The notes below the pieces were generated by a model. It was given only the letters and a program-made list of their open reading frames with translations. It had not been told where the DNA came from and ran no database searches. A DNA stretch of 63,687 bases, from NCBI GenBank assembly GCA_029781975.1, contig JAKOVQ010000051.1:1-63687 (forward strand). The letters are read 5' to 3'. Below, piece after piece: positions 32,238 through 61,428 of this stretch (its first letter is position 1; each line of letters starts with the position of its first letter). The DNA is from Acidobacteriota bacterium. Its GTDB lineage: Bacteria; Acidobacteriota; Thermoanaerobaculia; UBA5066. The translations under genes were made by a program, and so were the position numbers.

Positions 32238-34709
32238 TCAGGCGAACGCGGCGTAGTCGCCCGCCGCGAAGCGCTCGGCGAAGTGGCGGACGGAGGCTTC
32301 GTCCCGCATCAGCATGTCGAGCTGGCGCGCGCACCCCATGAGCGCTCCGAGCGTCGCGAGGCCCTCCTCGGAGGCCCGTGCCGGATAGCGCCGGAGCCAG
32401 GCCGTGACGAGGTCCCCCTTCCGGTCGACCGCGAACCCGGCCTGCCGGAGGGCCTCCTCCACGAAGCGGGCGCGCAGGTCCCGCCGCTCGGGTCCGGCCC
32501 CGCCGCCGCGGAACCGGAAGTTCACGAAGTTGTTCTCCGGGACGACGGAGACGAACGCGTCGACCATGGCGAAGTGGTAGGCGAGCCGGGCGTTCAGGTT
32601 GACGTAGTCCGGCGCCACCATGAGGTAGTTGCGGCCTCCCACCTGCCGGGCGTCCGAGGGGGCGGCGCTCACGGAGGAGGAGACGACCGAGAGGAACCCG
32701 CCGAGGCTGACCTGGGTCCGGCCCGCCCAGCTCACTCCCGGCCGGGTCATGCCGCGGTAGAGCGCCTGGAAGGGCGGGGAGGCCACCTCCTCCGGTCCGA
32801 CCTTCCCCCGCTCGAGGGCGGCCTGGGGCAGGGCGGCGCCCAGGTCGAGGACGGCGAGCGCCACGGGGAGCGCGGTCTCGAGGTCGCACACCCGGTGCCC
32901 GCCCCGCCGTCCGACCTCGTCGCCGAGGCCGAACATCGCGGCGACGGCCTTCTCGTGCGCGTAGCGGACGATGTCGTGGACCGACCGGCACCCCGCGGGG
33001 CGGAAGCCGAGCGCGTGGGGGTTGGTGAGGTGGAGCGCCAGGACGGGCTCGTGCAGGGGGCCGGCGAGGCGGCGGGAGGCGGCGTGGCGAGCCCGGCTGC
33101 GGGCGCGCTCGCGCGCCTCGGGCCAGAGGAGGCCGCCGAAGACGGCGCGGTCCGTGGCGTCGAGGCTGAGGGCCTGGTGATCGGCGAGGAGCCTCCAGGC
33201 GTCGGGGACGCCGAAGAGCGAGGGGACCCCGAACTCGCGGACGAGCGCGGCGGCGTGTCCGGCCTGGTTGCCCTGCTCGGCGACGAGGCCGGCGGCCCGG
33301 GGGAGCGCCGCCGCGAGCTCGGGTCCCGCCTGGCGGACCACAAGGATGGCCCCCTCGGGGGCGGCGAGGAGCTCGTCGGCCGTCGTGGCGAGGTGCGCCG
33401 GGCCGGCGGCGCGCCCCGGGACGATCGTCGTCCCGCCCCTCGCCACCGCCTCCCTCGGCTCGGGAGCCACGCGGCGGCGCGGCTCGCGCGCGGTCGAGCG
33501 GAGCCCGCGGCACTGGACGACCTTCGGCTCGTCCCCGGCCGTGAGGACCCATTCGACGTCCAGCGGGTGGCCCAGCTCGGACTCCAGCGAGAGGCCCAGC
33601 GTCACGAGACGCCGGACGTCGGCCGGGGTGAGGGGACCCGGCGCGCCGGGGTCGCCCCCTTCCCGGGCCGGGGGAGGCTCCACCTCCCCGGGCCGGCTGC
33701 GGCGGGCGAGGAGCGTCGAGGCCGGCGCCCGGCCTCTCGCCATCTCCCCGGCGAGGCCCGCGACCGCGTCGATGACCATCCGGTCGGCGGCCTCGTCCCG
33801 CGGGTCGCGGGTGTAAAGGACGCCGGCGGCCCGGGCGCGGACCATCGGCATCACCAGGACGGCCATCGGCGTCGCCACCTCGGTGAACCCGGTCGCGAGC
33901 CTGTAGAGGACCGAGTGGTCGCTCCAGCGGCTCGCGAGGACCGTGCGGTAGGCGGCCGGCAGGTCGCCGGTCGCGACGTCGAGGACCGTGTCGAACTGGC
34001 CGGCGAAGCTCATCCGCCCGTCCTCGCCGACCGCGCTCGACCGGACGGCCCAGCGCGCGGCGGGGTCGGCGGTGATGCGTCGGGCGCCCGACTCGAGCGC
34101 CTCGACGAGCGGGGCGGGGACGGGGCTGCGGGTGACGAGCGTGCGGATCGCCGCGGTCCGCTCCTTGAAGAGCCGCCTGCCCGCGATCAGGGTGAGGTCC
34201 GAGAAGAGCTCCCGGATCGGCCCGTGGAGCGCGTTCTCGGAGAGGAAGAGCCGGTACGCCGCGCTCGTCAGGACGAAGCCCGGCGGGACCGCCTCGCCCA
34301 GGAGCCTGCGGAGGCGGCAGAGCCCCGCGGCCTTCCCTCCGATCTCCTGCACCCGGGCGTCGCATGCCTCCTCGAGCGGCACCAGGAGCGGGAAGGAGGC
34401 GGAGTCGGGACAGGCGCGGAGCGTCTCGCGGACGGCGCGCTCGACGCCGGCGTGGGCCGCGTAGAGCGCGCGGTGCGTGTTCCCCGTCAGGATGTTCAGG
34501 TTCTCGGCGAGAAGGAGCGAGCCGTCGAGGAGGCGGACGACGCTCTCGCGGACGGAGGCGTCGTCCAGCTCGAGATGGGCGACGTCGGCCTCGAGGGCGG
34601 CCATCAGCTCGAGCATCTCGCTGTTGGACGCCAGCAGCCGCCTGAAGACGCGGTAGCGCTGCTTCAGCCGCCCGGCGGCCGGGGTCTCGGGGAGGTCAGG
34701 GGAGAGCAT
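32238..34709 (-). CDS. PEP-synthase-like protein: ATP-grasp plus phosphohistidine domain, no PEP barrel
   Basis: The protein has 823 residues. About 1-110: helical N-terminal domain. About 115-420: pyruvate-phosphate-dikinase ATP-grasp (IGGKAAGLCRLRRLL; WAVRSSAVGEDGRMSFAGQF; GVLYTRDPRD; VVQCRGL). About 430-520: swivelling phosphohistidine domain with the phosphorylatable His kept (NQAGHAAALVREFG, His485). The C-terminal part (about 540-823) is not the PEP/pyruvate TIM barrel of true synthases; it contains CRSVHDIVRYAHEKAV and NYLMVAPDYVNLNARL and is shared with the paralogue at 35141-36667. It may phosphorylate itself from ATP and pass the phosphate to an unknown acceptor. A response regulator gene lies immediately upstream (21-base gap). 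Confidence 0.75.
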   Translation of the reverse strand: MLSPDLPETPAAGRLKQRYRVFRRLLASNSEMLELMAALEADVAHLELDDASVRESVVRLLDGSLLLAENLNILTGNTHRALYAAHAGVERAVRETLRACPDSASFPLLVPLEEACDARVQEIGGKAAGLCRLRRLLGEAVPPGFVLTSAAYRLFLSENALHGPIRELFSDLTLIAGRRLFKERTAAIRTLVTRSPVPAPLVEALESGARRITADPAARWAVRSSAVGEDGRMSFAGQFDTVLDVATGDLPAAYRTVLASRWSDHSVLYRLATGFTEVATPMAVLVMPMVRARAAGVLYTRDPRDEAADRMVIDAVAGLAGEMARGRAPASTLLARRSRPGEVEPPPAREGGDPGAPGPLTPADVRRLVTLGLSLESELGHPLDVEWVLTAGDEPKVVQCRGLRSTAREPRRRVAPEPREAVARGGTTIVPGRAAGPAHLATTADELLAAPEGAILVVRQAGPELAAALPRAAGLVAEQGNQAGHAAALVREFGVPSLFGVPDAWRLLADHQALSLDATDRAVFGGLLWPEARERARSRARHAASRRLAGPLHEPVLALHLTNPHALGFRPAGCRSVHDIVRYAHEKAVAAMFGLGDEVGRRGGHRVCDLETALPVALAVLDLGAALPQAALERGKVGPEEVASPPFQALYRGMTRPGVSWAGRTQVSLGGFLSVVSSSVSAAPSDARQVGGRNYLMVAPDYVNLNARLAYHFAMVDAFVSVVPENNFVNFRFRGGGAGPERRDLRARFVEEALRQAGFAVDRKGDLVTAWLRRYPARASEEGLATLGALMGCARQLDMLMRDEASVRHFAERFAAGDYAAFA

Positions 34710-34730: not shown

Positions 34731-35144
34731 TCATCCCGCGGTCCCCGGGCCGTCCCGCGTCTCGCGCAGGAAGGCGGCGGCGCGCTCGACCATCCGGCGC
34801 AGCGCGTCGATCGTGAAGGGCTTGGCCATGAACGCGAAGGCGCCCAGCCCGAGGGCCTCCGCCCCCACGTCGCTCGCGGGGAGGCCCGTGATCAGGATCA
34901 CCTTGCAGTCGCGCGACCGGTCGCGGATCCGCCGGAGGAGCGCGAGGCCGTCCAGCCCCGGCATCCTCACGTCGGCCACGACGACGTCGAACGCGGCCTC
35001 CTCGAAGCGCTCGAGCGCCCTCCGGCCGTCGAGGAACGTCTCCACCTCGAACCCGAGCTTCTCGAGGACGGGCCGGACCCGCCGGCAGACGATCGGCTCG
35101 TCGTCGACGACCATGACGCGGAGGGGCCCCTGCTCCTGGCTCAC
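34731..35144 (-). CDS. single-domain response regulator
   Basis: The 137-residue CheY-like receiver has an acidic pair in MVVDDEP, phospho-acceptor Asp in DVVVADVRMPG, the Thr in ILITGLP and Lys in AFMAKPFT. No output domain. It starts at GTG 35144, overlapping the stop of the 508-residue gene by GTGA, and lies between the two PEP-synthase-like paralogues, so it is almost certainly translationally coupled to them. Confidence 0.9.
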   Translation of the reverse strand: MSQEQGPLRVMVVDDEPIVCRRVRPVLEKLGFEVETFLDGRRALERFEEAAFDVVVADVRMPGLDGLALLRRIRDRSRDCKVILITGLPASDVGAEALGLGAFAFMAKPFTIDALRRMVERAAAFLRETRDGPGTAG

Positions 35145-36667
35145 GCCACCTCCCCCAGGAAGGCGTCGATGTCCGCGGCGACGCCGGCGGCGGGTCGCCT
35201 CCCGACGGCCGCGAGCCGGGCGAGGAGCCGTCCCAGGAGGAGCGCCCGGCTCTCGGCCTCGGCGAGGGGGATCCGGCGGCTGGCGGCCCAGACCCAGGGG
35301 CCCGCGGCCGACACGCGGAAGCCGAGGCGCCCGAGGACGGCGGCGGCGAAGGCCCCTCGGGCCGATTCCGAGCCGTCGTCCCCGAGGGCCGCCAGCTGGC
35401 AGTGGACCTTGCCCGCGTGAGGGGACCCTTCGACGTCGACGTCGAGGAGATCGAGGCCGCCGGCGCCCGGCGCCGCCACGAGGACCCTCCCCCCGCTGGC
35501 GACCGCGCAGAGGGGAGCCGTCCCGCCGCGCTCGCCGGCAGGGGCCGTGGCGACGCCCCGGAGGAAGGCCTGGAGCGGGGGAGGAGGCACGGCGCCTCTC
35601 GCCGAGCCGTGCGGCTCGTCGAGGCGGATCAGCCGGAGCGTCTCCCAGGGCCCGCCGTCGAGCGGGACGGAGACGCCGCGTGCCGCGCAGGCCTTCGAGA
35701 CGATCTCCCCGATCGCGTCGCCCGCGAGGCTCGCCGAGAGGTGGACGACGTCGTGAAGCGTCCGGCAGCCGGCGACCGGCGCGGGCCGGCCGGGCACCAG
35801 GGTCAGGGGGAACCCCGCCCGGCGGACCGCCCGGAGGAGCACGTACTCGGGCTCCTCCTCCTGCTCCGCCCCCGGGCGTGACTGGCGGTGGTACTCGAGG
35901 AGCTCCGGCACCTCCCCCAGGTAGACGACGTTCTCGTCCGCGTCGACCGTGACGAAGGCGCCGTCGGGAAGCTGCGCCGTGACGTCCCCCAGCGCCAGGA
36001 TCGCGGGGACCCGGAGCTCGCGTGCGAGGCGGGCCGCCGGGCCCGCGGCGGTCCCGCGGTCGAGGAGGATGGCGGAGGGCCTGCGGGTGGAAAGGACGGC
36101 CGCTCCGTCGCCCCGCAGGTCCTCGGCCACGAGGACGCTCGCCGCGGGCGTGTCGGCGAGGGACGCGCCTCCGGCCAGGTTGCGGACGGTTCCCGCGGCC
36201 ACGCCCCGGCAGGCGACCTGCCCGCCGTCGCGGAAGAGCGCCGTCGCGGCCGCGAGGGCCCTCGCCAGGGCCGCCGGGCTGACCGAGGACGTCCCGCCGG
36301 GCGGCTCCCGGCCCTCGTCGGACGTCTCCTCGGCTCCCATCGCGCCGGAGCCCTCGGCGAGTGTCGCGCGGAGCTCTCCCTGGAGGCGCTCGACGGTCTC
36401 GAAGAGGGGGACGTCTCCCAGCGAGGTGACGACGCTCAGGTCGAAGACGGCGTCCTCGGCGATCCTGCCGGCCTGCTCGACGACGGTCACGACGTACTGC
36501 CGGTCGAGGACGAAGCCGCCGCCCTGCTTCTCCGCGGCGTCCTCGATCAGGGCGTCCAGCGCCGCGCGGGTGTCGAGGAGGTGGCGGAACCGCGTCACGC
36601 GCAACGTAAGGACCGTGCGGACCTCGCGCGTCGGCGCTCCCCCCAGGAGTCTCCTCCACCACGGCAT
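35141..36667 (-). CDS. degenerate PEP-synthase-like paralogue lacking ATP-grasp and phospho-His
   Basis: The protein has 508 residues from the ATG at 36667 (GAGGACCGAGCG upstream). A helical N-terminal part (TVLTLRVTRFRHLLDTRAALD) is followed by a phosphohistidine-type swivel domain at about 165-250, in which the His position is Pro: AAGPAARLAREL (Pro210) against QAGHAAALVREF in the partner. A C-terminal region homologous to the partner follows (CRTLHDVVHLSASLAG; LQAFLRGV; AGKVHCQLAALGDD; GRLGFRVSAAG). It has no ATP-grasp. I infer a scaffold or regulatory partner of the 823-residue protein. It heads the operon that continues through the response regulator, the partner and chrA. Confidence 0.6.
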   Translation of the reverse strand: MPWWRRLLGGAPTREVRTVLTLRVTRFRHLLDTRAALDALIEDAAEKQGGGFVLDRQYVVTVVEQAGRIAEDAVFDLSVVTSLGDVPLFETVERLQGELRATLAEGSGAMGAEETSDEGREPPGGTSSVSPAALARALAAATALFRDGGQVACRGVAAGTVRNLAGGASLADTPAASVLVAEDLRGDGAAVLSTRRPSAILLDRGTAAGPAARLARELRVPAILALGDVTAQLPDGAFVTVDADENVVYLGEVPELLEYHRQSRPGAEQEEEPEYVLLRAVRRAGFPLTLVPGRPAPVAGCRTLHDVVHLSASLAGDAIGEIVSKACAARGVSVPLDGGPWETLRLIRLDEPHGSARGAVPPPPLQAFLRGVATAPAGERGGTAPLCAVASGGRVLVAAPGAGGLDLLDVDVEGSPHAGKVHCQLAALGDDGSESARGAFAAAVLGRLGFRVSAAGPWVWAASRRIPLAEAESRALLLGRLLARLAAVGRRPAAGVAADIDAFLGEVA

Positions 36668-37046
36668 CGCTCGGTCCTCAGGCCCCGACCACGGTCTCGC
36701 GTCCTCCCGGCGGCCGGAATCGTAGCTCACGGGACTTCGCGGAGGGGCCCGGCGTCTCGCGCCCAAAGCCCGCGGCGCCCGCTCGGGGCGGTCCCCGGCT
36801 CCCGGCCTCGGACGGAGACCGTCCGCTCGGCGGACGCGGGACGTCGCGAAATCGGAACGTCCCGCGGCCCGGCGTTTCCGATCCGCGACATCGGACGGGG
36901 TCCCCTGGCGGGGCGCTCAACGCCGAAAGGGCAGGGCGTCGGCCCGTTACGGCCTTCGGACGCGATCGCGACGCCGTCTCGGCGCACGGGCACCGGCCTT
37001 GCGTCTCTCGAAAGCCAGCGGCGCCGCGCCGCGCTCTGGAGGTGCC
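36668..37046. promoter_or_regulatory. divergent intergenic region with 9-bp inverted repeat and a GTTAC half-site
   Basis: This 379-base region separates the PEP-synthase-like operon from the Hmc-like operon and should hold promoters for both. It contains a perfect dyad GCGGGACGT (36836-36844) / ACGTCCCGC (36857-36865) with a 12-base spacer, and CCGTTACGGCC at 36944-36954, which matches the left half of the inverted repeats upstream of apr/tmc and dsr but lacks a good right half. No gene is seen. Confidence 0.5.
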
Positions 37047-38426
37047 GTGGCGATCTCCTGCTCCTACTACCTCGAGCCGGTGGACACCCGCGATCTTCCC
37101 GGCCGGTTCCTCGAGGCGTTCGCGGCGATCCTGGCGCACTCGAGCTACGCCCCGGTCCTCGACGCGGCGGCGCGGGCGGGGGCGCGCTGCGGGCGCTGCA
37201 CGGTCGCCTGTCCCGTCCACCAGGCCTCCGGCGAGGCGCGGGACATCCCGTGCAACCGGACCGAGCTCGTCCTCGCCGTCTACCGCCGCTACTTCACGCT
37301 GGGCGGCATGGTGCGCGCGCGGCTCGGGAACGCGTTCACCCTCGACGAGGGCCACATCTCCCGGATGGCCGAGGACCTCTACCGCTGCACGGCGTGCCGG
37401 CGCTGCAAGCTCGAGTGCCCGTTCGGGATCGACCACGGCCTCATCACCCACTTCGGGCGGTGGGTCCTGGCCGAGGTCGGGATCATCCCGAAGGCCCTGC
37501 GCGTGGCCGTCCGCGAGCAGCTCGAGGGGAAGACCCACAACACCTCGGCGATCCCGGCGGCCGCCCTGCGGGACACCTGCGCGTTCCTCGAGGAGGACTG
37601 CCGCGACACCCACGCGATCGACGTCCGCTTCCCGATCGACGAGCAGGGGGCCGAGTTCGTCTTCTTCCCGGCGGTCAGCGACTACCTGCTCGAGCCCGAC
37701 ACGCTGACCGGGAACGCGGCGGTCCTGACGGCGACCGGGGCCTCCTGGACGATCGGGAGCCAGTACTTCGACGGGATCAACTACGGCCTCTTCTACTCCG
37801 ACCGGATGCTCGACCGGATCGTCTCGCTCGAGGCCGCCGAGCTGAAGCGGCTCGGCGCGCGCCGGATCCTGATCGGCGAGTGCGGCCACGCCTCCCGGGC
37901 AGCGAAGGCCTTCGTGAAGACCTTCTGCGGGGGCCGGGACGCGCCCGAGGTGGTGAACATCATGGAGTACACCGCGGACGTCCTGCGCCGCGGCCTGCTC
38001 CATCTCCGGCCGGGCACCATCGAGGAGCGGGTGACCTACCACGACCCGTGCAACATCGCCCGGTCGGGGTGGATCGTCGAGCAGCCCCGCGAGATCCTGC
38101 GGACGATCTGCTCGGACTTCGTCGACATGACGCCGAAGGGACGCGAGAACTACTGCTGCGGCGGCGGGGGCGGGTCGGTGTCGATCGACGAGATCCGGCC
38201 GTTCCGGACGAAGGTCGGCGGGGCCGCCAAGGCCGAGCAGATCCGGCGCACGGGCGCCACCACGGTCGTGGCGCCCTGCGCCAACTGCAAGAAGCAGCTC
38301 CGCGAGGTGTGCGACGACAACGGGCTGGGCCACGTGAAGGTCGTCGGCCTGCACGACCTCGTGCTCCTGGCGATCGACGCGCCCGCGTCGATGCGCGTCG
38401 CCGCAGGCCCGAAGGAGGGGGCGTGA
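37047..38426 (+). CDS. HdrD-like iron-sulfur subunit of an Hmc-like membrane redox complex (HmcF-like)
   Basis: The protein has 459 residues from GTG at 37047, chosen for the GGAGG 5 bases upstream. Two ferredoxin-type cluster motifs (CGRCTVACPVHQ; CTACRRCKLECPFGID) precede a CCG domain (YHDPCNIARSG; ENYCCGGGGGS; CANCKKQL) that binds the catalytic cluster in HdrD/DsrK/TmcB/HmcF proteins. It would sit on the cytoplasmic face and exchange electrons with a thiol/disulfide partner such as DsrC. It heads a tightly overlapping operon with NarI-like, ferredoxin and NrfD-like genes, the same subunit set as Desulfovibrio Hmc. Confidence 0.82.
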   Translation: MAISCSYYLEPVDTRDLPGRFLEAFAAILAHSSYAPVLDAAARAGARCGRCTVACPVHQASGEARDIPCNRTELVLAVYRRYFTLGGMVRARLGNAFTLDEGHISRMAEDLYRCTACRRCKLECPFGIDHGLITHFGRWVLAEVGIIPKALRVAVREQLEGKTHNTSAIPAAALRDTCAFLEEDCRDTHAIDVRFPIDEQGAEFVFFPAVSDYLLEPDTLTGNAAVLTATGASWTIGSQYFDGINYGLFYSDRMLDRIVSLEAAELKRLGARRILIGECGHASRAAKAFVKTFCGGRDAPEVVNIMEYTADVLRRGLLHLRPGTIEERVTYHDPCNIARSGWIVEQPREILRTICSDFVDMTPKGRENYCCGGGGGSVSIDEIRPFRTKVGGAAKAEQIRRTGATTVVAPCANCKKQLREVCDDNGLGHVKVVGLHDLVLLAIDAPASMRVAAGPKEGA

Positions 38427-38428
38427 CG

Positions 38429-39130
38429 ATGGACGCCTGGATCGCCCTCGCGCGCGGTCCGCTCTTCCGCATCTCGCTGGCCGTCTTCGTGCTCGGGCTC
38501 GGCTACCAGGTGGCCGAGACGGTCCTGTCCGCCTTCCTCGCGTGGCGGCGCGCCGGCGACCGTTCGCTGCCGGTCGGGGCGATCGCCCGGGCGACGGCGA
38601 GGTGGGTCCTCCCCGTCCGGCTGATGCGCGCGCACCCGCTCGCGAGCGTCGCGTCGGTCGTCTTCCACGCCGCGATCCTGCTGGTCCCTCTCTTCTCGCT
38701 CGGCCACGTGGCGCTCTGGCGGACCGGGACCTCGATCCCGTGGCCGGTCCTGCCGGCGGGAGTCGCCGACGCCCTCTCCGTGGCCGCGCTGGTCGCCCTG
38801 GCGGGGCTCGCGGTCGGCCGGCTCTCGAGCCGGGTCGGCCGCGGCCTGTCGCGCGCCCAGGACCTGCTCGTCCTCGTCCTCCTGGGAGGCGTCGTGGCGG
38901 CGGGGCTCCTCGCAGCCCACCCGGCCTGGGCGCCGGTCGACGCCCGCGCGATGCTCCTCGCCCACCTGCTGCTGGCCGACGCGACGCTGGCGCTCGTGCC
39001 GCTGACGAAGATGGCCCACTGCGTCCTCTTCCCCTTCCTCCAGCTCGTCTTCGAGGTCGGGTGGCACTTCCCGGCCGAGACCGGACGCCACGTGGCGATC
39101 GCCCTGGCCAAGGAGAACGAGCCCGTATGA
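38429..39130 (+). CDS. NarI-like cytochrome b membrane subunit (HmcE-like)
   Basis: The 233-residue protein has five hydrophobic helices (SLAVFVLGLGYQVAETVLSA; SVASVVFHAAILLVPLFSLG; ALSVAALVALAGLAVG; DLLVLVLLGGVVAAGLLA; LLLADATLALVPLTKMAHCV). His residues in VVFHAAILL, SLGHVAL, LLAHLLLAD and KMAHCVLFP are candidate haem b ligands. Probably takes electrons to or from the quinone pool and passes them to the HdrD-like subunit. A GTG at 38423 overlapping the previous stop is an equally possible start because AAGGAGG sits closer to it. Confidence 0.78.
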   Translation: MDAWIALARGPLFRISLAVFVLGLGYQVAETVLSAFLAWRRAGDRSLPVGAIARATARWVLPVRLMRAHPLASVASVVFHAAILLVPLFSLGHVALWRTGTSIPWPVLPAGVADALSVAALVALAGLAVGRLSSRVGRGLSRAQDLLVLVLLGGVVAAGLLAAHPAWAPVDARAMLLAHLLLADATLALVPLTKMAHCVLFPFLQLVFEVGWHFPAETGRHVAIALAKENEPV

Positions 39131-39921
39131 GATCCATGGCGATCCTCACCGACGTGACGCGCTGCATCGGCTGCGAGGAGTGCGTCCTCGCTTGCAAGCG
39201 GACGAACGGCACCGGCGCGGACGAGCCCCGGCGCTGGCAGCAGACGGCCGAGGACCTGTCCGAGAGCCGCTGGACGACCCTGGTCCCGGCGCCCGGGGGC
39301 CGCGCCGTGCGGCTCCACTGCCGGCACTGCCTCGAGCCCGCCTGCGCCTCCGCCTGTCCCGTCGGCGCGCTCCACCGGACGCCCGAAGGGGCGGTGGCCT
39401 ACGACGCCGACATCTGCATGGGGTGCCGGTACTGCATGATCGCCTGCCCGTTCCAGATGACGCGGTACGAGTGGTCGTCCGCCACGCCGCGCGTGCGCAA
39501 GTGCATCCTCTGCTACGAGAAGGTGTCGAGCGGAGAGCTCGACCAGCCGGCGTGCACGGCCGCCTGCCCGACGAAGGCGACGGTCTTCGGCACGCGCGAC
39601 GAGCTCCTGGCCGAGGCGCGGAGGCGGATCGCGGACGCCCCGGACCGTTACCTGAACCACGTGTGGGGCGAGCACGAGGTGGGCGGCACCTCGGTCCTGT
39701 ACGTCTCCGACGTCGACCTCGCGACGGCGGGCTGGCCCGCGGCCCTCAGGCCCGGCTCGTACCCGGCGCTGACCCGCCCCGCCCTCCACGCCGTCCCGTG
39801 GACGTTCGCGGGGGTGGGCGCGGCGGCGTTCGGGCTGAACTGGGTCATCGGCCGGCGGCGCCGCCTGGCCGGCGGCGAGGGGCCGGCGGGGCCGCCCGAG
39901 GGCGAAGGAGACGGGAAGTGA
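39127..39921 (+). CDS. four-cluster ferredoxin subunit with C-terminal membrane anchor (HmcB/HybA-like)
   Basis: The 264-residue protein has four [4Fe-4S] Cys sets: CIGCEECVLACK, CRHCLEPACASACP, CMGCRYCMIACP and CILCYEK with CTAACP. One hydrophobic helix lies near the C-terminus (WTFAGVGAAAFGLNWVIG) followed by a basic stretch. There is no Tat signal at the N-terminus, so the iron-sulfur head probably faces the cytoplasm unless exported with a partner. It wires the NrfD-like subunit to other carriers. Its start overlaps the previous stop (ATGA), and its stop overlaps the next GTG. Confidence 0.85.
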   Translation: MRSMAILTDVTRCIGCEECVLACKRTNGTGADEPRRWQQTAEDLSESRWTTLVPAPGGRAVRLHCRHCLEPACASACPVGALHRTPEGAVAYDADICMGCRYCMIACPFQMTRYEWSSATPRVRKCILCYEKVSSGELDQPACTAACPTKATVFGTRDELLAEARRRIADAPDRYLNHVWGEHEVGGTSVLYVSDVDLATAGWPAALRPGSYPALTRPALHAVPWTFAGVGAAAFGLNWVIGRRRRLAGGEGPAGPPEGEGDGK

Positions 39922-41879
39922 GCGGCCGGCCGGGGACCCGGCTGGGCGTGACGAAGGCGGTGCTCTGGCTGCTCGTCGGCGTCGCGGCGGCCGTCGGGGT
40001 CGTCCGCTACCTCCTGGGCCTCGGGTTGACGACGTCGCTCAGCGACCGGACGCCGTGGGGCCTGTGGATCGGCTTCGACGTCCTGGCGGGCGTCGCGCTC
40101 GCCGCGGGCGGGTTCGTGATCGCCGGGACCGTCCACGTCCTCCATCTCGAGCGCTACCGCTCCCTGCTGAGGGCCGCCGTCCTGACGGCGTTCCTGGGCT
40201 ACGTGGCGGTGGTCCTCGGGCTCATGGTGGACCTCGGCCGCCCGTGGAACATCTGGCGGCCGACGCTCTTCTGGCAGCCGCACTCGGCCCTCTTCGAGGT
40301 CGCCTGGTGCGTCATGCTCTACCTCACGGTCCTCGCGCTCGAGTTCGCGCCGGTGGTGGCGGAGGGCCTCCGCCTCGCAAGGGTCGTCGCGTTCCTGCGC
40401 CGGTTCACGCTCCCCCTCGTCGTCGTCGGCATCGCGCTGTCGTCGCTCCACCAGTCGTCGCTCGGGACGCTCTTCGTGATCGCCCCGCACCGGGTCCACC
40501 CTCTCTGGTACTCCCCGCTCCTGCCGCTCCTGTTCCTGATCTCGGCCGTGGCCCTGGGCCTTTCGATGGTGGCGGTCGAGAGCCTGTCGTCCTCGTGGCT
40601 GTTCCATCGCGAGCCGGAGTGGGACCTGATCGGGGGGCTGACCCGGGCCGCCGCGCCCGTGCTCGCCGCCTACCTGCTGCTGCGTCTCGGCGACCTCGGC
40701 GCGCGCGGCCAGCTGCGCCTCCTCTTCGAGCCCTCGTGGCTGACCGCGTGGTTCGTCCTCGAGCTGGCCGTCGGCGTGGTCGTCCCCCTCCTCCTCTTCT
40801 CGCTCCCCAGCGTCCGGCGCCACCGGCGCGCGCTCGGGGCCGGAGCGTTCCTCTCGGTCGCCGGCCTCGTCCTCTACCGGATCGACGTGGGCGGCCTCGC
40901 GCACGCCGCGGGGTCGGGCGACGGCTACGTGCCGGCCCTCACCGAGCTGTCGATCAGCGTCGGCATCGTGGCCGCGATGGCGCTCGTCTTCCTCTTCTTC
41001 GTCGAGCACCTCCGGGTCTGGGACGAGCCCCCCGCGCCGGCCTCCCGCTTCCGGCCGGCGTTCACCGACCTCGTCTCCGGCGTCCGCGTCCGGGCGCCCT
41101 GGATGGGGGGCGCGAGGCTCTCCGCGCTGGCGTTCACCGTCGGGGCCGTGGCGGGGCTCGGGCTCGTGCAGGCGCGGGTCGCCCGGCGCTCGGAGCCGAG
41201 GCCCTTCCCGGTCTCGCCGCCGCGGTCGGTCCTCGCGCTCCGGGTCCCGCCGCACGCGGCGGGGACGGCGGACCGCCTCCTCCTGACGACGAGCCTCGTC
41301 GCGCCCGCGCCCGCGGTGGTGGAGTCCGCGCTGCTGATCGGGGGTCCCGAGCCCGGCAAGGGCGTCCTCTTCGCCCACGCGGCCCACCAGGCACGGCTCG
41401 GCGGGACCGGCGTCTCGTGCGTCCGCTGCCATCACCGCAATCGCCGCGGGGACCGCGCCACGTCGTGCGCGGCCTGCCACCGCGACGTCCACGCGAGGAC
41501 GGACACGTTCTCGCACGAGCGGCACGCGGCGGCCCTGGGGGGGAACGACGGGTGCGTGAGGTGCCACGCGGCCGGCGCCGCCCGCACGCGGGAAGGGTCG
41601 ACGCCGTGCGAGACCTGCCACGGGCGGGACGCGCGGCTGGGGACCGGGACGGCGCCCGCCGCGACGCGGCCGGCCGGGGTCGCCGTGGGCTACCGCGACG
41701 CGATGCACGGCCTGTGCGTCGCGTGCCACCGGCAGGAGGACGTCCGAAGGAGCGACGGGGCGGGCCGCAGCCGCTGCGCCTTCTGCCACAGGGCCGGGTC
41801 GGCCGGCGGGTCGGGCGGCGGCGGGTCGGGTCCCGGCGGGGACCCCGTCCTCGTGGCGCGGGCGGGGACGATGCCGTGA
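39918..41879 (+). CDS. NrfD-like quinone-interacting membrane subunit fused to a six-haem cytochrome c domain
   Basis: The protein has 653 residues. Residues 1 to about 400 are an NrfD/HmcC-like protein with about ten helices (AVLWLLVGVAAAVGVVRYLLG; TPWGLWIGFDVLAGVALAAGG; DLGRPWNIWRPTLFWQPHS). After another hydrophobic helix (ALAFTVGAVAGLGLVQARVA), the C-terminal region carries six CxxCH haem motifs between residues about 501 and 624: CVRCHH, CAACHR, CVRCHA, CETCHG, CVACHR, CAFCHR. Distal-His patterns (FAHAAH; FSHERH) are like those of class III cytochromes. In known Hmc the cytochrome (HmcA) is a separate protein; here it is covalently joined, so quinone site and periplasmic haem wire are one chain. 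Confidence 0.88.
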   Translation: MSGRPGTRLGVTKAVLWLLVGVAAAVGVVRYLLGLGLTTSLSDRTPWGLWIGFDVLAGVALAAGGFVIAGTVHVLHLERYRSLLRAAVLTAFLGYVAVVLGLMVDLGRPWNIWRPTLFWQPHSALFEVAWCVMLYLTVLALEFAPVVAEGLRLARVVAFLRRFTLPLVVVGIALSSLHQSSLGTLFVIAPHRVHPLWYSPLLPLLFLISAVALGLSMVAVESLSSSWLFHREPEWDLIGGLTRAAAPVLAAYLLLRLGDLGARGQLRLLFEPSWLTAWFVLELAVGVVVPLLLFSLPSVRRHRRALGAGAFLSVAGLVLYRIDVGGLAHAAGSGDGYVPALTELSISVGIVAAMALVFLFFVEHLRVWDEPPAPASRFRPAFTDLVSGVRVRAPWMGGARLSALAFTVGAVAGLGLVQARVARRSEPRPFPVSPPRSVLALRVPPHAAGTADRLLLTTSLVAPAPAVVESALLIGGPEPGKGVLFAHAAHQARLGGTGVSCVRCHHRNRRGDRATSCAACHRDVHARTDTFSHERHAAALGGNDGCVRCHAAGAARTREGSTPCETCHGRDARLGTGTAPAATRPAGVAVGYRDAMHGLCVACHRQEDVRRSDGAGRSRCAFCHRAGSAGGSGGGGSGPGGDPVLVARAGTMP

Positions 41880-42295
41880 GCGTCCCGGCGCCCCCGCGGC
41901 CGCGGGTCGCCGTCATCGACGACGAGCCGGACGTCTCGACGTTCCTCCAGCTGGCCCTCGAGGACGCGGGGTTCGACGTCCTGGTGTCGAACACGCCCGT
42001 GAGCGTCCTTCAGGGGCTGCGCGCCTTCGCGCCCCACGTGATCTGCCTCGACGTGGTGATGCCGGAGCGCCTCGGCCCCTCGCTCCTCACGGACATCCGG
42101 CGGACCGAGGAGCTCCGGGAGGTCCCGGTGGTGATCCTCTCGGGCCTGCCCGACGGGGCCCGGACGCTCGACGGCCTCGACAGCGGGGGAGGCGGGCCCC
42201 CGCCGGCCGCGTTCCTCGAGAAGCCGATCGACGCCGCCGCCCTGGTCCTCACCGTCCGGCGGCTCCTGGCCGGCGGGAGCCGGGCACGGCCGTGA
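41876..42295 (+). CDS. single-domain response regulator (Rrf1-like)
   Basis: The 139-residue receiver has VIDDEPDV, phospho-acceptor Asp in VICLDVVMPE, Ser in VILSGLP and Lys in AFLEKPID. Starts at GTG overlapping the NrfD-cytochrome stop. A stand-alone receiver directly after hmc genes parallels Rrf1 of the Desulfovibrio hmc operon. No DNA-binding domain. Confidence 0.88.
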   Translation: MSVPAPPRPRVAVIDDEPDVSTFLQLALEDAGFDVLVSNTPVSVLQGLRAFAPHVICLDVVMPERLGPSLLTDIRRTEELREVPVVILSGLPDGARTLDGLDSGGGGPPPAAFLEKPIDAAALVLTVRRLLAGGSRARP

Positions 42296-43776
42296 GCTCC
42301 TGCCCGTGGCTCCCCGCCGATCGGACGCTGCTGTTCGACGAGATCCCGTGCAGCATCGTGGTGGTCGACCGGAGCTACACCATCGTGGACCGCAACCCGG
42401 CGTTCGCCGCGATCTGGGGCGACGGCCTCGGCGCGACCTGCCACGAGCTGACGCGCGGGCGCCCCGGACCGTGCTCGGGCTGCCCGGCCGAGAAGACGTT
42501 CCGGGACGGGGAGCGTCGGGTCCTTGCGCAGAACGGCCGGGACCGCCACGGCAAGCCGGTCCACACGCTCGTCCACGTGGCGCCCGTCCACGACGCGGGG
42601 GGATCGGTGTCGCACGTGGCGATCATGTCCACCGACCTGACCGTCACGCGGCGGCTGCAGGAGGAGTACCAGACTCTGTTCGAGCAGGTCCCGTGCTTCG
42701 TGGCCGTCGTCGACCGCGACCTCCGCGTCGTCAAGGCCAACCGCCTGTTCCGCCGGGTCTTCGGCGAGCCGGACGGGGAACGCTGCTACGCGCTCTTCAA
42801 GCACCGCCAGGAGAAGTGCGACGACTGCCCGGCCGAGCGGACGTTCGGCGACGGCGGGACGCACACGTCCCGCCACGTCGGCGTCTCGAGGGCGGGGGAG
42901 GAGACCCATTACCTGGTGTCGACCGCCGCCCTTCAGCCGGGCGACGACGGCCCGACCCACGTGATCGAGATGGCGCTGGACCTCACCGACCTGACGCGTC
43001 TCGAGCGCGAGAAGCTGGAGGCGGAGCGGCTCGCCGCGGTCGGCCAGACGGTGGCCGGGCTGGCGCACGGGGTGAAGAACATGCTCACGGGCCTCGAGGG
43101 AGGGATGTACGTCACCTCCACCGGGCTCAAGCGGGGCGACCCGAAGCGGACCAGCCAGGGATGGGAGATGCTGGAGCGCAACATCGGGCGCATCTCCTCC
43201 CTGGTGAAGAGCCTCCTGGCGTTCTCGCGAGGGGAGGGCCCCCGGCCCTCGCGGTTCGACCCGGGCGAGGTCGTGCGGGAGATCCACGACCTGTTCTGCC
43301 AGAGCGCGGCGCGGCACGGGGTGGAGCTCCGCGTCGACGCGGGGGCGGCGCCGGTCGGCCCGGTGGTCATGGACCGCGACGGCCTCCGCTCCTGTCTCGA
43401 GAACCTCGTCTCGAACGCCCTCGACGCCTGCCTCGTGAGCGGACCGGCGCCCTGCGTCATCGACATGCGGCTCCTCGAGCGCGACGGGACCGTGACGTTC
43501 GAGGTCGCCGATTCCGGCTGCGGCATGGACTACGACGTCAAGCAGAAGGTCTTCACGAGCTTCTTCAGCACGAAGGGGGCGGGCGGCACGGGGCTCGGGC
43601 TCCTCCTCACCCGGAAGTTCGTCCAGCAGCACGGCGGCACGATCACGTTCGACTCCACGCCGGGACGGGGGACGACGTTCCGGCTGAGCTTCCCGCGGCA
43701 GCGCCTGCCGGAGCTCCCGCCGGAGGGCGGTCCCGGGGCCACGGATCCGGAATGCGGTTCATCGAGGAGGCAGTAG
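42292..43776 (+). CDS. double-PAS histidine kinase with repeated Cys motifs
   Basis: The protein has 494 residues from GTG 42292, overlapping the previous stop. Two tandem PAS domains (about 10-120 and 125-235) each carry the same pattern, C-x10-C-x2-C followed by PAE-[KR]-TF (Cys50/61/64 and Cys165/176/179), suggesting a bound metal, Fe-S cluster or redox-switching thiols. There are no membrane helices, so it is cytoplasmic. HisKA: GLAHGVKNMLTGL. ATPase: LENLVSNALDAC, DSGCGMDY, GTGLGLLLTRKF. A redox-sensing kinase for the adjacent receivers is likely. Confidence 0.88.
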   Translation: MSSCPWLPADRTLLFDEIPCSIVVVDRSYTIVDRNPAFAAIWGDGLGATCHELTRGRPGPCSGCPAEKTFRDGERRVLAQNGRDRHGKPVHTLVHVAPVHDAGGSVSHVAIMSTDLTVTRRLQEEYQTLFEQVPCFVAVVDRDLRVVKANRLFRRVFGEPDGERCYALFKHRQEKCDDCPAERTFGDGGTHTSRHVGVSRAGEETHYLVSTAALQPGDDGPTHVIEMALDLTDLTRLEREKLEAERLAAVGQTVAGLAHGVKNMLTGLEGGMYVTSTGLKRGDPKRTSQGWEMLERNIGRISSLVKSLLAFSRGEGPRPSRFDPGEVVREIHDLFCQSAARHGVELRVDAGAAPVGPVVMDRDGLRSCLENLVSNALDACLVSGPAPCVIDMRLLERDGTVTFEVADSGCGMDYDVKQKVFTSFFSTKGAGGTGLGLLLTRKFVQQHGGTITFDSTPGRGTTFRLSFPRQRLPELPPEGGPGATDPECGSSRRQ

Positions 43777-43781
43777 GAGCC

Positions 43782-44333
43782 ATGCGCAGGCCAGAAGAGC
43801 TCACCGTTCTCGTGGTGGACGACGATCCCGACGTGACCCTGTTCCTCGGCTCGGTGCTCGAGGACGCCGGCTTCCGGGTCGCGACGGCCGGCGGCGGGCT
43901 GGAGGCGCTCGAGCGCCTGCGGCGGGGCCCCCTGCCCGACCTCATCTCGCTCGACCTCGTCATGCCGGGTCACTCCGGCATCCGCGTGCTCCACGACCTC
44001 CGCAAGCACCCCGAGTGGTCCCGCATCCCCGTCATCGTGGTCAGCGGCCACAGCCGCGAGCCCGAGGTCCGGCGCGGGCTCGACGAGGTGCTCGCCGACA
44101 GCGCGCTCTCCGGACCGTCCCTCTACCTGGAGAAGCCGGTCACGGCGGACAGCTACGTGGAGGCGGTGTGCCGCGTCCTGGAGGTCGACCGGGCGGCCGA
44201 GAGCCCCGGGGCAGGGGACGCCGACCGGCTCCGGAGCGAGGTGGCGGCGCTGATCTCCGGGGCGGGCCCGGACGCCCTGGAGGCGGCCCTCCAGGCCCTG
44301 CGGGCCGGCCCGCGGCGCGCGGACGGCCGGTGA
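43782..44333 (+). CDS. response regulator with short C-terminal extension
   Basis: The protein has 183 residues from the ATG at 43782 (TAGGAGCC upstream, 5 bases after the kinase stop); an ATG at 43752 inside the kinase gene is possible but less favoured. Receiver residues: VVDDDPDV, Asp in LISLDLVMPG, Ser in VVSGHS, Lys in YLEKPVT. The last 45 residues are an Ala/Gly/Arg-rich tail without a recognised output domain. Likely partner of the kinase just upstream. Confidence 0.87.
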   Translation: MRRPEELTVLVVDDDPDVTLFLGSVLEDAGFRVATAGGGLEALERLRRGPLPDLISLDLVMPGHSGIRVLHDLRKHPEWSRIPVIVVSGHSREPEVRRGLDEVLADSALSGPSLYLEKPVTADSYVEAVCRVLEVDRAAESPGAGDADRLRSEVAALISGAGPDALEAALQALRAGPRRADGR

Positions 44334-44364: not shown

Positions 44365-44769
44365 ATGGCGCAGCCGCCCGTCCGGCCCCGCGTCCTGATC
44401 ATCGACGACGAGCAGGACGTGGTGACCTACCTCGAGAGCGTCCTGAACGACAACGGGTTCGAGGCGACCGGGACGACCGACGGCGCGGAGGGGCTCGCCC
44501 TGGCGCGGCGCCTCCGGCCCGACCTGATCTGCCTCGACGTCGTCATGCCCCCGCCGACGGGCGTGAGGGTCTACCGGGACCTGCGCGGCGATCCGGCCCT
44601 CGCCGCGATCCCCGTCGTGATGGTCACCGGCGTCCAGAAGGAGTTCAAGGGGTTCATCCACCACCGCAAGCTCGTGCGGCCGCCCGACGCCTACGTCTCG
44701 AAGCCGTTCGACGTCGCCGAGCTCCTCGCCACCCTGCGGCGGCTCCTCCCAGCGGCGGCGAGCGCGTAG
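44365..44769 (+). CDS. single-domain response regulator
   Basis: The 134-residue receiver has IIDDEQDV, phospho-acceptor Asp in LICLDVVMPP, Thr in MVTGVQ and Lys in YVSKPFD. AAAGGAGGGAG lies upstream of the ATG. Third receiver in the plus-strand run after the redox complex. It ends before a bidirectional-terminator-like hairpin. Confidence 0.9.
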   Translation: MAQPPVRPRVLIIDDEQDVVTYLESVLNDNGFEATGTTDGAEGLALARRLRPDLICLDVVMPPPTGVRVYRDLRGDPALAAIPVVMVTGVQKEFKGFIHHRKLVRPPDAYVSKPFDVAELLATLRRLLPAAASA

Positions 44770-60984: not shown

Positions 60985-61428
60985 ATGACGAAGCCCAAGG
61001 AGAAGGGCCCCGATCGGACCGCCAAGATCGTCTCGACGCTCCGGCTCTGGCAGGAGGACGAGAACGCGACGATCGCGCACACGACGGAGGTCGTCGGCAA
61101 GTCGAAGAACCAGCTGGTGAAGCTGCTGATGGAGATCATCCGCCACGACTCGATCATGCACCACCGGGTGCAGCAGTTCATGATCGACAGCCTGACGACG
61201 ACCACGATCACGCTGACGCCCGAGGAGCTCGGCGAGGTGTGGGAGCTGGTGGAGAAGCACATCGCCATGGAGCGCCGGACCATCGGCTACGGCGAGGAGC
61301 TGACCAGGCTGTGCACCCAGCTGGTCCACAAGCACCTCCTCGCGTACCTGCTGACCGACGAGGAGAAGCACGACAAGCTGCTGACCCAGCTCGAGGACTT
61401 CAAGAAGAAGATCCATCCCTACGCGTAG
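60985..61428 (+). CDS. ferritin-like (possibly diiron) four-helix protein in the dsr operon
   Basis: The 147-residue protein is almost wholly helical: four predicted helices at about 12-38, 41-70, 79-103 and 106-140. Acidic and His residues recur at helix positions typical of ferritin/rubrerythrin folds: Glu26/Glu35; His54-Asp55 with His59-His60 (IRHDSIMHHR); Glu90/Glu96 (EKHIAMERR); Glu126-Glu127 and His129 (DEEKHDKLL). No Cys-rich rubredoxin tail. GGGAGAACGAAG lies upstream. It sits between dsrD and a dsrL-like gene on the same strand, so a role in peroxide/oxygen protection or iron handling for Dsr is possible. The family cannot be named. Confidence 0.6.
   Translation: MTKPKEKGPDRTAKIVSTLRLWQEDENATIAHTTEVVGKSKNQLVKLLMEIIRHDSIMHHRVQQFMIDSLTTTTITLTPEELGEVWELVEKHIAMERRTIGYGEELTRLCTQLVHKHLLAYLLTDEEKHDKLLTQLEDFKKKIHPYA

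Follow-up and report, generated by a model that had tools for sequence, protein, structure and literature searches.

A four-gene operon ending in an NrfD-hexahaem cytochrome fusion

We analyzed a stretch of 63,687 nucleotides from an Acidobacteriota bacterium (Thermoanaerobaculia, UBA5066; assembly GCA_029781975.1, contig JAKOVQ010000051.1, forward strand), referred to as the window throughout, and focused on a gene that joins an NrfD-type membrane subunit to a multihaem cytochrome c. This gene (39918..41879, plus strand; GTG start, TGA stop) encodes an NrfD (HmcC/HybB-type)-hexahaem cytochrome c fusion of 653 aa, as identified from its open frame and from Pfam and NCBIfam matches, and closes a row of four genes on the same strand. 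The first (37047..38426, with an alternative TTG start at 36999) encodes an HmcF/DsrK/HdrD-like cytoplasmic iron-sulfur subunit with two 4Fe-4S motifs and a CCG domain according to Pfam. It is followed by an HmcE/TmcC/NarI-like membrane cytochrome b subunit with five transmembrane segments (38423..39130; NCBIfam TmcC 5.4e-29, HmcE 5.3e-26) and by an HmcB-like four-cluster ferredoxin with a C-terminal hydrophobic segment and without a signal peptide (39136..39921; NCBIfam HmcB 6.8e-66), whose stop codon overlaps the GTG start of the fusion (GTGA).

The fusion frame is open over all 653 codons without interruption, and the coding signal based on G+C content at third codon positions (GC3) shows no break between the NrfD part and the haem part. 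Its six CxxCH motifs begin at residues 501, 517, 546, 564, 600 and 620 (positions 41418, 41466, 41553, 41607, 41715 and 41775). Since scanning the 63,687 bases in six frames turned up no CxxCH outside the fusion, these motifs are not a matter of chance. A first-pass annotation, made from the sequence of the window alone, had described a single NrfD-cytochrome frame, six CxxCH motifs in its C-terminal domain and a four-gene Hmc-like operon in which no separate gene codes for a cytochrome, and this description of the locus holds in each respect.

The partner subunits retain their putative cofactor ligands in alignments of the relatives described below. The CCG cysteines 335, 370, 371, 411 and 414 of the HmcF-like subunit are invariant in 69 rows; His 82, 95, 181 and 199 of the HmcE-like subunit, fit for two b haems, occur in 96-100% of 75 rows, and the 16 cysteines of the HmcB-like subunit in 99-100% of 78 rows.

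Distribution and phylogeny of the fusion

Scanning GTDB genomes with the family alignment retrieved 579 relatives, and the locus figures given here refer to the best 80. All 80 encode NrfD and the haem domain within a single frame and have six haem sites; for one of them five CxxCH were counted, the motif of haem 4 being CX4CH. As the junction is intact in 80/80 separately assembled relatives, an assembly or frameshift artefact is excluded, and the idea of a one-genome oddity was rejected. Far from being unusual, the fusion is the norm throughout a family that spans phyla. The best 80 relatives come from about a dozen phyla, namely Acidobacteriota, Planctomycetota, Zixibacteria, Bacteroidota/Ignavibacteria, Calditrichota, Gemmatimonadota, Myxococcota, Latescibacterota, Omnitrophota, Electryoneota and others. 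Upstream of the fusion, HmcF-, HmcE- and HmcB-like genes were all seen in 68/80 loci (HmcB 78, HmcE 75), many of the remaining contigs ending too near the fusion. In three planctomycete loci (L101, L123, L124), a gene for a 23-haem cytochrome lies just downstream of it.

Within a set of 61 related genomes, nine contain the same fused operon. In addition, we searched 347 genomes of the phylum starting from HmcE, which gave two well-separated groups of matches. The strong ones (E <1e-60) lie at 18 places in 17 genomes; 16 of these have the full fusion, and in the 17th the contig ends inside NrfD, with a 67% identical NrfD sequence at the edge. No unfused form of the six-haem complex was found in the 347 genomes by this HmcE-led search, the weak matches that were opened being other systems, among them the genuine Hmc of G164 described below. 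Homologues in which the two parts are regularly separate genes, named in the first-pass annotation as the case that would speak against a genuine fusion, were not encountered within the six-haem clade, this search included.

A maximum-likelihood tree of the NrfD part placed all 54 six-haem rows, including that of the window, in one clade (support 100/99). Fusions with 14 haems form a second clade, and those with three haems lie elsewhere, among cytochrome-free proteins. From these positions, haem domains seem to have been gained (or lost) repeatedly on this NrfD branch, with the six-haem form as one lineage in the sampled sequences. Three-haem matches listed with internal stops had also been considered as broken six-haem fusions, which was rejected because their frame stops after the third haem and they sit on other branches.

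Such a three-haem fusion is present in the genome of the window itself (L042, G000:C2:21270-22802) as well as in G004, G009, G011 and G013. Its neighbours are an HmcB-like gene without a twin-arginine translocation (Tat) signal, a histidine kinase (HK) and a response regulator (RR), with no HmcF or HmcE. The third type (L043, L044, L165 and L166 in G001, G020, G202 and G243) combines NrfD with 14 CxxCH in ~1100 aa, next to a Tat-bearing HmcB-like subunit and often further multihaem genes. Furthermore, eight loci (L152-L156, L159, L164, L167) hold two-gene HmcB-HmcC modules without a cytochrome, with a Tat-less HmcB and followed by histidine kinase and response regulator genes. Both the three- and the 14-haem fusions likewise carry a C-terminal haem c domain on a HybB-like NrfD, but differ from the six-haem form in tree position, haem number and neighbours and in lacking HmcF and HmcE.

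Haem domain, membrane topology and quinone site

The haem domain (41358..41795, residues 481-626) is matched by Pfam Cytochrom_CIII at residues 481-568 (2.9e-11; 44 bits, cut-off 22.9). Across 81 aligned rows, the six haem motifs are invariant, as are the non-motif histidines 487, 506, 533, 536 and 597, while His 490 is conserved in >90%. These six histidines provide one candidate distal ligand per haem, which fits c3-like bis-His haems. Compared with PDB entries, the haem-domain profile found 16-haem HmcA first (8e-26), followed by the nine-haem cytochrome NhcA and c3; since multihaem motifs raise all such scores, the HmcA match shows the type rather than strict descent. Foldseek, run with a model of the haem domain alone, also ranked c3/HmcA first, at an E value of 0.09, which is below significance. 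Judged by its sequence, the domain is a class III cytochrome c of the c3/HmcA type with predicted bis-His ligation.

By sequence and model, the preceding part belongs to the HmcC/HybB branch of the NrfD/PsrC superfamily. Helices 1-10 of the NrfD/HmcC domain span 39966..41033 (residues 17-372; NCBIfam HmcC 3.1e-88), with a match to Pfam NrfD (PF03916) at residues 42-322 (2.5e-20; 73.8 bits, cut-off 25.8). The AlphaFold (AF2) model of the fusion (predicted local distance difference test, pLDDT, 82; predicted template modelling score, pTM, 0.80) resembles ActC of alternative complex III over residues 4-370 (Z 33, root-mean-square deviation 3.1 over 360 residues) and, with Z 19, PsrC. A fold search with the whole model returned only ActC, PsrC and bd-oxidase folds, up to about residue 377.

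The ten helices counted in the first-pass annotation are present, but an eleventh follows (41097..41192, residues 394-425). It appears in the model and in the hydropathy averaged over 81 rows, which shows 11 hydrophobic helices, the last centred at residue 413. Lysine and arginine are concentrated in the even loops (mean over 81 rows 19.1, against 4.7 in the odd loops), which places the N terminus of the fusion inside and its haem domain outside. Haems of the c type are attached on the periplasmic side, and it is the eleventh helix, as the link between the two parts, by which the haem domain is predicted to reach this side.

For the quinone site, we used the list of HybB quinone-site and proposed proton-path residues from PMC8076601. 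The quinone-site residues D58, D109, S129 and E133 of HybB correspond to D54, D105, S123 and E127 of the fusion, which are conserved in 49, 53, 54 and 54 of 54 rows, respectively. Most, not all, of the proposed proton-path residues of HybB are present as well, and Y99, Y141, E148, H184, E291 and R329 are kept in 54/54 rows.

On which side of the membrane the ferredoxin lies is the most interesting structural question of this complex. In exported relatives (DsrO, HybA-like proteins, the 14-haem group and true HmcB), a twin-arginine signal precedes the first cysteine by ~45-55 residues; the HmcB-like protein of the six-haem, the three-haem and the cytochrome-free HK/RR group starts only ~9-20 residues before it. 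The HmcB profile match begins at position 36, leaving the first 34-35 positions unmatched. No credible Tat signal was found on the HmcB-like subunit among 75 six-haem relatives, and in 52 of them fewer than 30 codons separate the in-frame stop from the first cysteine, which leaves no room for a signal and points to a cytoplasmic ferredoxin. The NrfD topology is nevertheless identical across the groups with exported and non-exported ferredoxin. One possible arrangement, which we put forward tentatively, is a two-sided complex with an N-in NrfD and a periplasmic quinone site, in which the ferredoxin would remain cytoplasmic and the periplasmic side would be left to the fused hexahaem domain. A point that speaks against it is that the C-terminal hydrophobic segment of the HmcB-like protein has Arg/Lys at its end whether or not the group is an exported one. 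If true, the arrangement would be common to the six-haem, the three-haem and the cytochrome-free HmcB-HmcC-HK-RR loci. It would differ from all NrfD modules in the surveyed literature, where ferredoxin and quinone site share one side of the membrane; for SoeABC, the entire subunit is considered to be inverted.

Relation to Hmc, DsrMKJOP and other complexes

The operon had initially been read as a complete Hmc-like operon. One could accordingly regard the complex as a plain Hmc in which HmcA was shortened and fused to HmcC, with the architecture and task known from Desulfovibrio (HmcABCDEF). The subunit set is indeed identical save for HmcA and HmcD, with HmcF-, HmcE-, HmcB- and HmcC-like subunits in one operon and a haem domain of the c3/HmcA type; besides the profile match to 16-haem HmcA, the NrfD part is nearest to HmcC/HybB models. 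However, all four subunits fall far below the equivalog cut-offs of NCBIfam (bits/cut-off: HmcF 190/750, HmcE 92/275, HmcB 222/420, HmcC 297/550). Six haems are fused to the HmcC-like chain in place of a separate 16-haem HmcA, no HmcD gene was seen, the HmcB-like subunit has no Tat signal and two-component genes are attached. The HmcF-like subunit is nearer to DsrK than to HmcF (DsrK 4.9e-81, HmcF 6.4e-56, TmcB 7.9e-55, all under the cut-offs). A genuine Hmc does occur in the phylum, in a dsrA-positive Acidobacteriota genome without the fusion (G164). There, the order is HmcE, TmcB/HmcF-like, HmcA, HmcB (L174, G164:C75), with a separate 16-haem HmcA (546 bits, cut-off 400) and a Tat-bearing HmcB (507 bits, cut-off 420). 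We consider a plain Hmc unlikely, and by cut-offs, haem number and missing Tat signal the complex is not Hmc as far as its sequences tell. The suggestion that the fusion replaces HmcA is sustained in broad terms by the haem domain, which is nearest to HmcA, but the complex around it is a different one.

DsrMKJOP offers the same types of parts, namely NarI-like (M), HdrD-like (K), multihaem c (J), ferredoxin (O) and NrfD (P) subunits, and is likewise linked to dsrAB. Its DsrP, however, has no haem domain, DsrJ is a separate trihaem protein and DsrO carries a Tat signal, and the scores of the fused complex remain under the respective cut-offs (DsrK 273/400, DsrO 92/200, DsrP 24/350). It would thus work like Hmc or DsrMKJOP, yet it fails the tested defining features of either. 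With QrcABCD and HybAB of Hyd-2, the fusion shares quinone-site and proton-path residues and the N-in topology, but there the ferredoxin subunit is exported by Tat (the HybA signal was seen here) and haem or catalytic subunits are separate chains. In Nhc, Ohc and Tmc of sulfate reducers, a multihaem c3-type cytochrome also works with NrfD (Nhc) or HdrD/NarI (Tmc) parts, but as a separate subunit. No description of an NrfD-hexahaem fusion was found in the open-access NrfD and acidobacterial Dsr literature; a 2021 review of NrfD modules in Biochimica et Biophysica Acta (BBA) and a 2011 survey of sulfate-reducer complexes could hold one.

Link with the Dsr pathway

The remainder of the window's right half reads as a gene cluster for dissimilatory sulfate reduction, with sat, qmoCBA, aprAB, a dsrMK pair, dsrAB, dsrD, a DsrL-like gene and dsrN; gene names follow translations and gene order, with dsrA checked by a family model and the DsrL-like gene by its domains. 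Among the 61 relatives, the fusion is present in 9/10 dsrA-positive and 0/51 dsrA-negative genomes (Fisher 6e-10), and in the 347-genome sample 15/17 fusion genomes have dsrA, which occurs in 29 genomes overall (Fisher 1.4e-16), both values being too small owing to kinship among the genomes. The two fusion genomes of this sample without dsrA are 84% and 74% complete. The pattern repeats in eight families; in the family of the window, as sampled, only the window's own genome has the fusion or dsrA. In other phyla, 40/50 fusion genomes have dsrA, and in 18/80 loci the fusion has Dsr, sat, apr or qmo genes no more than 10 kb away.

The fusion was also considered as a substitute for DsrJOP. This was rejected, as another contig of the same genome (C15) carries a complete DsrMKJOP, with Tat on DsrO, together with a DsrC-like gene.

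Proposed function

Outside Desulfobacterota, most organisms for which a sulfate-reduction pathway is predicted are uncultured. Building on the composition, the predicted topology, the conserved quinone and haem residues and the dsrA link, all established at the level of sequence, we consider it reasonably likely that the fusion forms the core, within the membrane, of a transmembrane redox complex of four subunits. This complex would be akin to Hmc and DsrMKJOP without being either of them, and would connect c haems in the periplasm and quinone with sulfur chemistry in the cytoplasm. Taking the place of a separate cytochrome of the HmcA/DsrJ type, the fused cytochrome would, as an integral part of the chain, move electrons between periplasmic c-type donors and the NrfD quinone site on the periplasmic side. 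NrfD might take up or release protons from the cytoplasmic side, by analogy with proposals for QrcD and HybB. For Qrc, quinone reduction has been shown to be electrogenic, and the same was suggested for HybB and HmcC (PMC6303296); work cited in PMC8076601 proposes that in DsrMKJOP quinone cycles between two subunits that react with it. From quinol, or straight from the c haems, electrons would pass via the b haems of the HmcE-like subunit across the membrane to the HmcF-like CCG protein. The latter might reduce a disulfide in the cytoplasm, for which the DsrC trisulfide or a comparable Dsr-pathway thiol is the most likely candidate; the trisulfide is a probable target because the HmcF-like subunit scores best with DsrK. 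The net flow in sulfate reducers would be from periplasm and quinone to the cytoplasm.

Several points weigh against this proposal, beyond the kinship that inflates the association with dsrA. Ten of the 50 fusion genomes outside the phylum have no detected dsrA; most are draft metagenome-assembled genomes, but some may truly lack it. The DsrMKJOP and DsrC on contig C15 mean that the Dsr pathway already has its reductant, so the fused complex must do something additional. Finally, the electron route, its direction and the DsrC partner are what we infer from the features above.

Alternatively, electrons could run outward, from cytoplasmic thiols or ferredoxin via HmcF/HmcB and then the quinone pool to the periplasmic hexahaem domain, which would pass them to external acceptors or into an oxidative respiration (sulfur oxidation, metal reduction). 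NrfD modules with multihaem cytochromes have been proposed to feed metal reduction elsewhere (PMC7327174, PMC9386147), an oxidative direction of the Dsr pathway has also been proposed for Acidobacteriota (PMC6018796), and the 23-haem cytochrome genes of the three planctomycete loci would fit such a role. The strong association with dsrA and with reductive-type clusters that carry dsrD argues in the opposite direction, and the conserved HybB/QrcD-like proton path suggests quinone reduction, which makes an outward flow improbable in our assessment. That an NrfD gene and a neighbouring cytochrome gene were joined by chance read-through or assembly has the sole point in its favor that the two are separate in well-known complexes, and is practically negligible: at the sequence level it is already refuted by the 80/80 fused relatives, along with the continuous coding signal over the junction and a conserved extra helix that the topology requires.

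Altogether, the fused four-gene complex is probably a widespread and undescribed part of electron transfer to sulfate in such bacteria. The family provides one marker complex that is easy to recognise and follows dsrAB over about a dozen phyla; genome surveys seem to have overlooked it or filed it as Hmc or generic NrfD. As a covalent chain of quinone module and cytochrome with fixed stoichiometry, it would also be a handy object for structural work on how NrfD couples c haems, quinone and proton uptake.

Neighbouring genes

Directly after the fusion, whose stop codon overlaps its start (GTGA), lies a gene for a response regulator receiver (41876..42295, plus strand; Pfam Response_reg 2.9e-14), and at least 50 of the 80 loci have a response regulator downstream. 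The next gene encodes a soluble PAS-PAS histidine kinase (42292..43776, plus strand; Pfam PAS_4, HATPase_c), in which both PAS domains contain a cysteine and, ~ten residues on, a CxxC. This motif recurs in 51/52 histidine kinase homologues beside the fusion (L049-L128), 36 of them with two, and the kinase might possibly serve as a redox or metal sensor for the complex. Two stand-alone response regulators follow on the same strand (43812-44333, 44365-44769; Pfam Response_reg).

Just upstream of the operon, on the opposite strand, two phosphoenolpyruvate (PEP)-utiliser/PPDK-type proteins (32241-34709 and 35144-36604, minus strand) flank a response regulator. Within the sulfate-reduction cluster, a CxxCxxCC-domain protein (PF03692; 51404-52189, minus strand) is encoded between qmoA and aprA, with a homologue at the same place in a Polyangiaceae contig (L057). 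A 147-aa protein without a Pfam match (60985-61425, plus strand) follows dsrD; homologues stand after dsrD in G033, G039, G048 and G060, and beside dsrAB in G021.

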